NCBI GenBank assembly: GCA_021841865.1
Contig: JAKCDM010000001.1
Span: 1 to 64,000, forward strand
Length of the DNA: 64,000 nt
Direction: 5' to 3'
Source: Pseudomonadota bacterium
Lineage (GTDB): Bacteria; Pseudomonadota; Gammaproteobacteria; Burkholderiales; Burkholderiaceae_C
Shown one piece after another: positions 23,784-29,000 of this stretch; within the stretch, counting starts at the first letter, position 1, and every line of letters starts with the position of its first letter. The translations under genes were made by a program, and so were the position numbers. Under the pieces are notes generated by a model. It worked only from the letters and a program-made list of their open reading frames with translations. It had not been told where the DNA came from and ran no database searches.

Positions 23784-24212
23784 TCACTGGCACGACGAGG
23801 GCAGGTAGGCCGTGGCCACGCTGTTGTGCTTGCAGGTCCACGTCAATACCGCCCCTGAGTTGCTGGCGCCCGACAGTTCGATCGACTGGCCCGAGATCGC
23901 GGTGTTGGCATGGTTGCCGTACAGGATGGTGATCACGCCGTTGGCGATGTTCACCGACTGCACGTAGTTGCCCTGTATGGATGCTGGCGAAGGCGCGTTG
24001 GCTGCGTGGTTGCTCGCCGGAAAACTGCCATGCTGTGCGTAGTAGTCCCACAGCACGGTTTTGTAGCCTTCGGCCAGCGACAGCCCCTCGGAAACCTGGG
24101 CGCGAATCGTGTACGTCATGTAGGCGGGAATCGCGATCGCCGCAAGGATGCCGATGATCGCCACCACGATCATCAATTCGATCAAGGTGAAGCCGCGTGA
24201 CCGGATGCGCAT
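23784..24212 (-). CDS. Type IV pilin (PilA-like)
   Basis: [49 protein letters not shown] prepilin leader; C-terminal Cys pair. Confidence 0.93.
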   Translation of the reverse strand: MRIRSRGFTLIELMIVVAIIGILAAIAIPAYMTYTIRAQVSEGLSLAEGYKTVLWDYYAQHGSFPASNHAANAPSPASIQGNYVQSVNIANGVITILYGNHANTAISGQSIELSGASNSGAVLTWTCKHNSVATAYLPSSCQ

Positions 24213-24303: not shown

Positions 24304-24771
24304 TCAGGTGCAGGACGAGGGCAAGTAGTTGTTAGGGACGGCCGTGGTACCGCCACCTTTGCAGGTCCATTGGATCGAGCCACCGCCGGCCGTATTCGCG
24401 GACAGAACCAGCGAATCGCCACTGATGGCGCTGTTCGCCTTGGAGCCGTAATTACCGGTCCCCACCTTGCCATAGGTAATGGTGATGAACCCGCTCGTCT
24501 TTACGTCCACCGAACCGACATAGTTGCCACCGATCGAGCCGGCCGAGGCAAGACCCGCCACCGTATTGGATGACGGCCACTTGCCCGTATTGGCGTAATA
24601 CTCGGCGACCGCCGTCTTGGCGCCATCAGCCAGCGACAGACCTTCCGACACCTGCGCGCGGATGGTGTAGTTCTGGTAGGCCGGAATCGCGATCGCGGCC
24701 AGAATGCCGATGATGGCCACGACGATCATCAATTCGATCAGCGTGAAGCCTTGCTGCAGTTGCTTTTTCAT
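24304..24771 (-). CDS. Type IV pilin (PilA-like), tandem paralogue
   Basis: [52 protein letters not shown]... Confidence 0.95.
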
Positions 24772-24892
24772 GTGCGGATCCTTGGTTGGGTACGGAAGGT
24801 TCGGCTCGGCGGCAAGTCCCGTGTGCTTCACCGGTGTTCGAGACCGGCCGCTGCCGGGTCGACGTCAACCCCTGCCGGGGCACTCCCTATGA

Positions 24893-25094: not shown

Positions 25095-25598
25095 ATGCAA
25101 GCGTGCAGCCGGCGCATGGCGTCGGTGGTGTTGGGCAGGAGCGAACGCACGGTTCGCCGCTGGTGCGACGACGGCACCTTGCGCCTGGTCGGCAGCGACG
25201 CCGCCGGGCGCGCGCTGGTGAGCCTGGATCAGGTGCTGGACATGCTCGACATGCTCGACCCCACGGCGGCGCGCGAGCGCTGGTCGCGCCTGGTGCTCGA
25301 TGCCGACTCCGGCGACGCCGACGCACTGGCCTGCCTGGGCACCGAGCTGCTGCAGCAGGGCCTCACGGCCGGGGCCGTCAGCCTGCTCACGGAGGCGGCG
25401 CAGCAGCAGCACGCCGACGCCATGCATTGGCTGAGCCATTGCCACCTGCACGGACTCGGCGTGGAGCGCGATGCCGACCTGGCGCTGATGTGGCTGCACC
25501 GCGCGGCGGCGCAGGGCCACGCGGTGGCTCGAGCGCAGTCGCGGGCGCTGCGCCAGCTGTCGATGCGCCAGCAGCCTGGCACCCCCGCGGCTCAGTGA
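25095..25598 (+). CDS. HTH (MerR/excisionase-like) plus Sel1-repeat protein
   Basis: SRRMASVVLGRSERTVRRWCDDGTLRLVGSDAAGRALVSLDQVLDM; ADAMHWLSHCHLHGLGVERDADLALMWLHRAAAQGHAVA. Confidence 0.75.
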   Translation: MQACSRRMASVVLGRSERTVRRWCDDGTLRLVGSDAAGRALVSLDQVLDMLDMLDPTAARERWSRLVLDADSGDADALACLGTELLQQGLTAGAVSLLTEAAQQQHADAMHWLSHCHLHGLGVERDADLALMWLHRAAAQGHAVARAQSRALRQLSMRQQPGTPAAQ

Positions 25599-26848
25599 AT
25601 CGCGTACAGCGGCCCGGTGCCGACCGGACTCGACATGCCGTGGATCACGTAGGCGATGCTGCGCCCGTAGAAGTACGGCATGCCGAGGTCGACCACCGTG
25701 CTGGCGGTCACGGGGGTCGGGTTTCCGTCGGTGGCACCGATGTCGTTGAACGCCACGTTGCGCGAGAAGTCCATGGTCGAGTAGTCGGCGAGCTCCATCT
25801 GGCTGTCCATCGACGCCGAGTAGGACGCGCCGGCGGACGATTTCAGCGTGATGGGCAGGGCGAGCAGGGTCGGCGGAGTGAAATTGCCCGCGGAATCGGT
25901 CGGCACCACGCCTGACAGCGGCGCGAAATAGAAGTTCGAGCCGCTGTCGATGAACGAGCCCGGGTAGTCGATTCCACGCAGGTTCACGGTCAGGTTGCCC
26001 CAAGGGTCGGCCGGCAGGACCTGGAAGCCGCTGACCGAGTTGTCGGGCTGCGTGCCGACGCCGAAGCTGAGCACGCCGTAGGTGGTCCCTGCGCCGGCGC
26101 TGGGTATGCCCGGCATCTGCACGACGACGCCGTTGTTGTCGGCGCTCTGCAGGTAGAAGACCGGGTTGGACACCATGGAATTCGCGGCCGGCTGCGGGTT
26201 GAGCTTGCTGCAGGCGCTTGACGTGCAGGAGTAGTAGACGCCGCCGTCGGAGACGAACTGCCCGACTCCCAGCAGGCCGTTGCCTTGCAGGCCGCGCAGC
26301 GAGCCGACGTCGCTGCCGGTGCTGGCGCAATCGGCGGGCACCGCTGGAAGGCCGCTGGCGCCGATGACCTGGATCGGCAGCGACGACGTCGTCTCGCCGC
26401 CCATGCGAAGCGTGGCATGGGCCACGCTGCCCCAGATGTAGCCGCTGAGAAAGCGCGCGCATTCGCCCAGTTGCTGGGTCCCCGAGACCGTGTCGGCCGG
26501 CAGGTTCAGGCCGCCGAGCGCGCCTTGCAGCACGCGCAGCCCGTACGAGCCGGTGTCGAGCACGATGTGGTCGATGGTCTTGCACTGGTTCGATGCATCG
26601 CACACGGTGACCGAGACATAGGGAATGTTCACCGTGGCCAGGCTCGGGTATTGCGCGGTGACGTCCGGATTGCTCGCCACGGTCACGAGCAGCTGGTTGC
26701 CCCCGACGGCGGGCGGCAGCGGCGTGCTGCCGCCGCCGGAACTCCCGCCTCCACCTCCGCCGCAGGCCGAGAGCCCGAGCACCGCGGCCAGCGCCAGCAG
26801 CGCTGCGAACCCGGCGCGACGCGCCACTCCCGCCAGGCCTGCCGTCAT
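25592..26848 (-). CDS. DUF3443-type lipoprotein with pepsin-like aspartic protease motifs
   Basis: Lipobox LSAC; IDHIVLDTGSYGLRV; GNGLLGVG; GVLSFGVGTQ; SFIDSGSNFYFAP; LGMPYFYGRSIAYVI. Confidence 0.85.
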   Translation of the reverse strand: MTAGLAGVARRAGFAALLALAAVLGLSACGGGGGGSSGGGSTPLPPAVGGNQLLVTVASNPDVTAQYPSLATVNIPYVSVTVCDASNQCKTIDHIVLDTGSYGLRVLQGALGGLNLPADTVSGTQQLGECARFLSGYIWGSVAHATLRMGGETTSSLPIQVIGASGLPAVPADCASTGSDVGSLRGLQGNGLLGVGQFVSDGGVYYSCTSSACSKLNPQPAANSMVSNPVFYLQSADNNGVVVQMPGIPSAGAGTTYGVLSFGVGTQPDNSVSGFQVLPADPWGNLTVNLRGIDYPGSFIDSGSNFYFAPLSGVVPTDSAGNFTPPTLLALPITLKSSAGASYSASMDSQMELADYSTMDFSRNVAFNDIGATDGNPTPVTASTVVDLGMPYFYGRSIAYVIHGMSSPVGTGPLYAIH

Positions 26849-27393
26849 GGCTGCACGCCCAGGCTGGCGAGGTCCACCCCGGCGGGCACCAGCGCGGGTG
26901 CGTAGGCGGAGCCGAAATACGCGCGCATGTGGCCCGCGGCATGCGCGACGATCTGCGGCGTGCGCAAACGCACCGCCGCACGATACGAAGCCGCCGGGCG
27001 GGCCCGCAGCCCGGCCTGGTAGCCGGGAAAGTAGCTGCCCAGCAGTTGCTGCAGGTCGGGGATCGTGGCGCCCGACCACGCGATGGCGAACACCACGCCG
27101 TCGGCGCCCGAGTATTCGTGCACCGTCACGCCCGACACGTCGACGACGGTGGTGTCGCTGACCTGCGCCGCGCCGGCGGCTCGCAGTGCGTGCGCCTGCG
27201 CCAGCGGCCGCCCGTCGGCCAGCGCGCCGGACGCCGGGCCGCCGAGCGCGGCATGCGCGCCCGGTGCGGCGACCAGCGCGGCGCAGCCCACGCACAGCCA
27301 GGCGCGCCAGACGCGGCAGGTGTGCCCAAGGTGCCAGAGGTGCCGAAGGCACCAAGCGGCCGGCCGCTGCCGACCTCCACCCGATTCATGCAT
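26845..27393 (-). CDS. DUF2844-type secreted protein
   Basis: Signal peptide-like N-terminus; VTVHEYSGADGVVFAIAWSGATIPDLQQLLGSYFPGYQ...AGHMRAYFGSAYAPALVPAGVD; ATGA overlap with the DUF3443 gene. Confidence 0.8.
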   Translation of the reverse strand: MHESGGGRQRPAAWCLRHLWHLGHTCRVWRAWLCVGCAALVAAPGAHAALGGPASGALADGRPLAQAHALRAAGAAQVSDTTVVDVSGVTVHEYSGADGVVFAIAWSGATIPDLQQLLGSYFPGYQAGLRARPAASYRAAVRLRTPQIVAHAAGHMRAYFGSAYAPALVPAGVDLASLGVQP

Positions 27394-28034: not shown

Positions 28035-29000
28035 ATGTCAAGCACTATATTGCATGCTTCAGCCGCCGCCAGCAGCCCACCGGCCGCCGGGCAGCCCGCG
28101 GGACCGAGCCGGGGGCCCCGCGCGGCACTGCCGTCGCGGCACCCGTTCCTGGTGGCCCTGGGCGAGCGCGTGCGCGCGCTGCGTGCGCGCCGGGGGCTCA
28201 CGCGCAAGGCCGTGGCGCTTGCCTCCGACGTTTCGGAACGCCATCTCGCGAACCTGGAAAGCGGCGTGGGCAACGCCTCGGTGCTGGTGCTGCTGCAGGT
28301 GGCGCAGGCGCTGCAATGCTCGCTGGCCGAGCTGCTGGGAGACGTCACCGCGTCGTCGCCCGAATGGGTGCTGATCCGCGAACTCCTCGAGCACCGCGAC
28401 GAGGCCACGCTGGGGCGCGTGCGAGCGGCCATCGGCGAGATGCTGGGCACCGGCGGAGACAACGCCGCGCGCAGTTCGCGCGTGGCGCTGATCGGGCTGC
28501 GCGGAGCCGGCAAGACCACGCTGGGCCGCATGCTGGCCGAGGACCTGGGCTTCCCCTTCGTCGAGCTCAGCCGCGAGATCGAGCAATTCGCCGGTTGCAG
28601 CGTGGCCGAGATCCAGTCGCTGTACGGCATGAACGCGTATCGCCGCTACGAGCGCCGCGCGCTGGAGGAAACCATCCAGCTCTACACCGAGGCGGTGATC
28701 GCCACGCCGGGCGGGCTGGTGTCCGAACCCGCGACCTTCAACCTGCTGCTGGCCCACTGCACCACCGTGTGGCTCAAGGCCACGCCGCAGGACCACATGC
28801 AGCGAGTGATCGCGCAGGGCGACATGCGCCCGATGGCCGCCAGCGCCGAGGCCATGGGGGACCTGCGCACCATCCTGGCCGGACGCGAACCCTTCTACAC
28901 CAAGGCCGAGTTCTCGCTGGACACCAGCGCCCAGGCGCTGCAGCCGACCTTCCTGGCGCTGCGCGCGCTGGTGCGCGAGACCCTGCGCATCGACGCCTGA
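28035..29000 (+). CDS. BoxR/BzdR-type regulator (XRE HTH plus shikimate kinase-like domain)
   Basis: VALGERVRALRARRGLTRKAVALASDVSERHLANLESGVGNASVLVLLQVAQAL; VALIGLRGAGKTTLGRMLAEDLGFPFVELSREIE. Confidence 0.9.
   Translation: MSSTILHASAAASSPPAAGQPAGPSRGPRAALPSRHPFLVALGERVRALRARRGLTRKAVALASDVSERHLANLESGVGNASVLVLLQVAQALQCSLAELLGDVTASSPEWVLIRELLEHRDEATLGRVRAAIGEMLGTGGDNAARSSRVALIGLRGAGKTTLGRMLAEDLGFPFVELSREIEQFAGCSVAEIQSLYGMNAYRRYERRALEETIQLYTEAVIATPGGLVSEPATFNLLLAHCTTVWLKATPQDHMQRVIAQGDMRPMAASAEAMGDLRTILAGREPFYTKAEFSLDTSAQALQPTFLALRALVRETLRIDA

Follow-up and report, generated by a model that had tools for sequence, protein, structure and literature searches.

Pepsin homologues have been reported to be rare in bacteria. 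Among those described, shewasins A and D are bilobal proteins with two catalytic Asp residues that do not have a classical prosegment; neither has a signal peptide, and the cytoplasm is the main location of shewasin D (PMC2761423; PMC4814920), whose activity is highest at acid pH (PMC4814920). Pepsin position 218 is Asp in bacterial A1 members, a residue that in renin is tied to activity at neutral pH (PMC2761423). Mycobacterial PecA, located at the cell surface, is an active protease that the D293G mutation inactivates (PMC6819658), and an aspartic-protease structure has been solved for PE_PGRS16 (PDB 4EHC). RloA of Pseudomonas is an exported Gram-negative aspartic protease, which is retropepsin-like (PMC12239564).

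The DUF3443 locus and its comparison with described aspartic proteases

We analysed a gene of the DUF3443 family (PF11925) in the window, that is, the whole stretch of 64,000 nucleotides under study. Pfam assigned residues 70-416 of its 418-aa product to PF11925 (E 5e-86; 289 bits, above the gathering cut-off of 25 bits). The gene, the elements discussed below and the adjoining partner gene are located as follows (all on the reverse strand):

26845..27393, reverse strand: DUF2844 (PF11005; Pfam E 2.6e-34), secreted partner gene; the signal peptide ends in AHA, directly before ALGG
25592..26848, reverse strand: DUF3443 (PF11925) lipoprotein, 418 aa, predicted bilobal pepsin-type aspartic protease (Pfam, AlphaFold2, Foldseek); start codon ATG at 26848 and stop codon at 25592-25594 (sequence)
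26762..26848, reverse strand: signal peptide (residues 1-28) and predicted lipidated Cys29 (lipobox LSAC; residue +2 is Gly) (sequence)
26531..26575, reverse strand: IDHIVLDTGSYGLRV, putative lobe 1 catalytic motif, residues 92-106, with D98 (codon 26555-26557)
26402..26473, reverse strand: beta-hairpin 126-133/136-149, proposed active-site flap (DSSP of the AlphaFold2 model)
26261..26284, reverse strand: GNGLLGVG, residues 189-196, lobe 1 hydrophobic-hydrophobic-Gly psi-loop with G194
26048..26077, reverse strand: GVLSFGVGTQ, residues 258-267, opening strand of lobe 2 (pepsin counterpart GSVVLLGGID)
25919..25957, reverse strand: SFIDSGSNFYFAP, putative lobe 2 catalytic motif, residues 298-310, with D301 (codon 25946-25948)
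25664..25687, reverse strand: LGMPYFYG, from residue 388, lobe 2 psi-loop with G389 and the helix after it (pepsin ILGDVFIRQYY)

The initial annotation had read this protein, from its motifs and lipobox, as a pepsin-type aspartic protease. The motifs and residue numbers that it quoted were all found, including the spacing of 203 residues between D98 and D301, and so was the LSAC lipobox, whose Cys29 is present in 63 of 65 homologues.

Compared with the MEROPS A1 enzymes pepsin, BACE1, plasmepsin II and rhizopuspepsin, DUF3443 shares the predicted fold, the order and spacing of the motifs and the proposed flap hairpin, but differs in having a lipid anchor and its own conserved cysteines and in having no prosegment. 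The likeness to the shewasins extends to their bilobal form, the two catalytic Asp and the missing classical prosegment; however, DUF3443 is predicted to be exported, it has Ser/Thr at pepsin position 218, and it gives no significant direct sequence match. With the PecA/PE_PGRS16 type it would have in common a bacterial origin, export to the surface, an aspartic protease fold and DTG and DSG motifs; PecA is exported by ESX-5 and carries a PE domain and PGRS repeats, whereas DUF3443, a predicted Sec lipoprotein, has conserved cysteines and is paired with DUF2844. Like RloA, DUF3443 would be an exported Gram-negative aspartic protease, but RloA belongs to another operon (PMC12239564) and DUF3443 is predicted to be bilobal.

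Conservation, predicted fold and sequence relatives

DUF3443 genes were taken from named contigs and from whole genomes at three levels, phylum, order and family, and we built two alignments with them: a first one of 65 sequences, and a second one (A1) of 60 sequences with a median pairwise identity of 38%. Both putative catalytic residues, whose conservation the initial annotation had proposed to check, are Asp in 65 out of 65 sequences, as are S101, G103, R105, G194, G258, G263 and G303 invariant; A1 contains 20 invariant positions. The twin Asp motifs exceed chance, since D98 and D301 are the only invariant residues among the 20 Asp of the window protein, at a median identity of 38%. Around them, T99 is found in 63 and G100 in 64 of the 65 sequences of the first alignment, and residue 304, directly after G303, is Ser in 59 and Thr in six, as in many acid pepsins. 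The lobe 1 psi-loop (residues 192-194) is conserved in 60/60 sequences, with G191 and G194 invariant and hydrophobic residues at 192 and 193; its lobe 2 equivalent G389 is kept in 64/65 (first alignment) and 59/60 (A1), and the pair preceding it is mostly D-W or D-L in A1, versus I-L in pepsin. The hairpin turn carries an aromatic residue, at position 133, throughout A1 (57 Phe and three Tyr), which may be the counterpart of the flap residue Tyr75 of pepsin. The strict lipobox pattern is found in 51 of 60 members, several of the misses being variants of the LFAC/LYAC type, and a few members are fusions or do not have Cys29. A cysteine pair at 318/324 is present in 56 of 65 members; the window copy does not have it.

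The nearest relatives of the window protein (L016, L017 and L018, sharing 93, 68 and 94% identity) come from metagenome bins SKS3, ZJ1 and LL3, whose habitat bears on how plausible an acid optimum is for DUF3443. Some DUF3443 genes look broken: two are split over two reading frames (L059/L065 and L060/L066), each piece having one catalytic Asp region, and another (L063) aligns as two overlapping pieces; these look like frameshifts, rearrangement or assembly errors.

The AlphaFold2 model of DUF3443, computed from alignment A1 (mean pLDDT 90.7, pTM 0.87), is a two-lobed all-beta protein with a pepsin fold, the fold that the initial annotation had anticipated. Foldseek matched the model to 516 PDB chains at E<=0.001. 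Every one of the best 50 of these 516 is a bilobal protease of family A1; the top match has E 6e-11 and probability 1.00, and the alignments run over about 400 columns, covering both lobes, with identities of 9-14%. For the same best 50 matches, TM-scores were ∼0.41-0.50 (normalised by the query) and 0.45-0.63 (by the target), with an rmsd of ∼6-10 Å over both lobes; these low TM-scores, together with the high rmsd, suggest that the modelled DUF3443 shares a fold with eukaryotic A1 proteases and differs in lobe orientation or by sizeable insertions. A library of viral structures gave only weak matches, some of them to half-size aspartic proteases. Taken as a prediction of fold and active site, from the model, its Foldseek matches and the invariant D98 and D301, the assignment of this lipoprotein as an aspartic protease is supported.

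Links to known aspartic proteases at the level of sequence were far fainter. Searches of PDB sequences, by phmmer with the protein and separately with a profile of 60 sequences, returned no relevant chain and no significant aspartic protease match. We also compared profiles by hhalign, the pepsin profile consisting of porcine pepsin (identical to 3pep), human pepsin and three bacterial A1 proteins. The mature DUF3443 profile aligned with this small profile weakly (∼10% probability) and collinearly over all motifs, pairing D98 with D32, D301 with D215, GLLGVG with GILGLA, LSFGVGTQ with LLGGID, and LGMPYFYG with ILGDVFIRQYY; single lobes compared with pepsin lobes gave short motif matches only. 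Thus, none of phmmer, the profile search and hhalign revealed significant sequence homology of DUF3443 to an A1 type member.

PF20729 (PE-PGRS_C, aspartyl-peptidase-like) matched DUF3443 members with E-values of 6.6e-6 in Pfam scans and of 4.4e-6 and 7.9e-5 in genome searches; the best members scored 26-27 bits, below the curated cut-off of 33 bits, and the window protein had no match. In addition, a second lipoprotein family from related bacteria (L067, L076, L070, and L071) reached hhalign probabilities of 94.6% (mature part) to 97% with DUF3443, and two of its members (L067 and L076) also match PF20729. Because of these PF20729 matches and the hhalign link to a second PF20729-matching family, the mycobacterial PE-PGRS_C domains appear to be the nearest known sequence relatives of DUF3443, with pepsin more distant. 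PecA belongs to PF20729, judging from the name and description of the model. Two reading frames of the second family, each of ∼670-680 aa (L070:1336-3378 and L071:390-2399), contain two tandem pepsin-like units, and each unit has its own pair of D-T/S-G motifs. We also observed aspartic-protease-like stretches in two long reading frames, of 3894 aa (L083; G030:C77) and 4118 aa (L074; G137:C33), the former of which carries PD40 beta-propeller repeats as well.

DUF2844, the probable partner

DUF2844 lies directly upstream of DUF3443, and the two genes overlap by ATGA, the stop codon of the former running into the start codon of the latter, so that they are probably translationally coupled. DUF2844 was found at most DUF3443 loci, and the two genes occur together in 25 of 25 extended neighbourhoods. 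Paraburkholderia ginsengisoli has two tandem DUF2844-DUF3443 pairs, and one genome (G322) has five DUF3443 and six DUF2844 matches. No DUF2844 was recognised upstream of DUF3443 at two loci (L046 and L047). Among the 349 genomes sampled from the order, all 39 carriers of DUF2844 have DUF3443, and 39 of the 43 carriers of DUF3443 have DUF2844 (Fisher p ∼1.5e-47, a value that ignores kinship among the genomes). This near-obligate partner is the strongest addition to the earlier pepsin reading.

No other neighbour was conserved beyond close relatives in the 25 extended neighbourhoods, and for this reason the two type IV pilin genes that lie side by side downstream of the operon (23784-24212 and 24304-24831, reverse strand) probably have no functional link with DUF3443. 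On the other side of the operon, a fusion of HTH_3 and shikimate-kinase domains (28035-29000, forward strand) adjoins an enoyl-CoA hydratase gene, an arrangement reminiscent of the BzdR/BoxR regulators of benzoate catabolism.

Most likely, DUF2844 is a dedicated partner of DUF3443, serving either as a pro-region or inhibitor in trans or as its main substrate. The DUF2844 model (pLDDT 81) gave no significant Foldseek match in the PDB (best E 0.06). A more far-reaching reading, less likely than not, is a two-component exported protease, in which a pepsin anchored in the outer membrane would have its pro-region or inhibitor as a separate secreted protein; as far as we found, no regulated envelope protease of this kind has been described for Gram-negative bacteria. 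It is also less likely than not that DUF2844 is a substrate processed by DUF3443 rather than its regulator, a possibility that is compatible with the protease reading: the one-to-one linkage and co-occurrence of the genes, the export signals on both proteins and the conserved ALGG at the start of mature DUF2844 are all consistent with it, but sequence and structure fail to separate a substrate from an inhibitor, a pro-region or a chaperone.

Proposed mechanism, alternatives and distribution

We propose, with good though not full confidence, that DUF3443 is a pepsin-like aspartic endopeptidase with two lobes, exported and fixed by a lipid anchor, with DUF2844 as its dedicated secreted partner. 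Guided by its Sec signal peptide and lipobox, DUF3443 would cross the inner membrane and then be anchored, probably in the outer membrane according to the Lol rule, since residue +2 is not Asp, where it may face either the cell surface or the periplasm; the conserved cysteines would suit an oxidising compartment. Each predicted lobe would contribute one catalytic Asp (D98 and D301) for the activation of water, and a peptide lying in the interlobe cleft, beneath the flap with F/Y133, may be cut by general acid-base catalysis, as the fold suggests. Unlike pepsins, the lipoprotein has no recognisable prosegment.

The pepsin fold serves non-enzymatic inhibitors in plants. DUF3443 could likewise be a catalytically dead pepsin fold with a binding or inhibitor role, like the TAXi-type xylanase inhibitors, and its tight partner gene could then encode the binding target; we consider this unlikely, because the catalytic Asp pair, S101, G303 and S/T304 are kept in all aligned members, which would be needless without catalysis. 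The suggestion that DUF3443 is a single-lobe, retropepsin-type (A2-like) protein, or a non-pepsin beta protein with DTGS motifs arisen by chance, is very improbable and largely refuted by the Foldseek comparison of the model: Asp_protease_2 brushes three DUF3443 members and gag-asp_proteas one, in weak Pfam matches, but the protein has 418 residues, two motifs 203 residues apart and two psi-loop glycines, and its best 50 of 516 structural matches are all bilobal. The two predicted lobes with their two motifs argue against a single-lobe domain of the A2 type that acts as a dimer.

Above the cut-off, DUF3443 occurs in 43 of the 349 genomes sampled from the order and in 10 of 399 from the phylum; PF00026 is rare, exceeding its cut-off in five of 249 sampled genomes of the phylum. 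Relatives of DUF3443 are carried by five plasmids, of Burkholderia, Paraburkholderia and Caballeronia, and none was found in phage records. We found no paper naming DUF3443, PF11925 or DUF2844 in the open-access literature.

If the proposed reading holds, DUF3443, present in about one in eight of the sampled genomes of the order and with relatives that include Burkholderia and Paraburkholderia, would give bacteria exported, lipid-anchored and cysteine-rich pepsins, and would link the A1 enzymes with the PecA type. DUF2844 in turn gains a testable role, and two families of unknown function are brought together in a single hypothesis of an enzyme and its partner.
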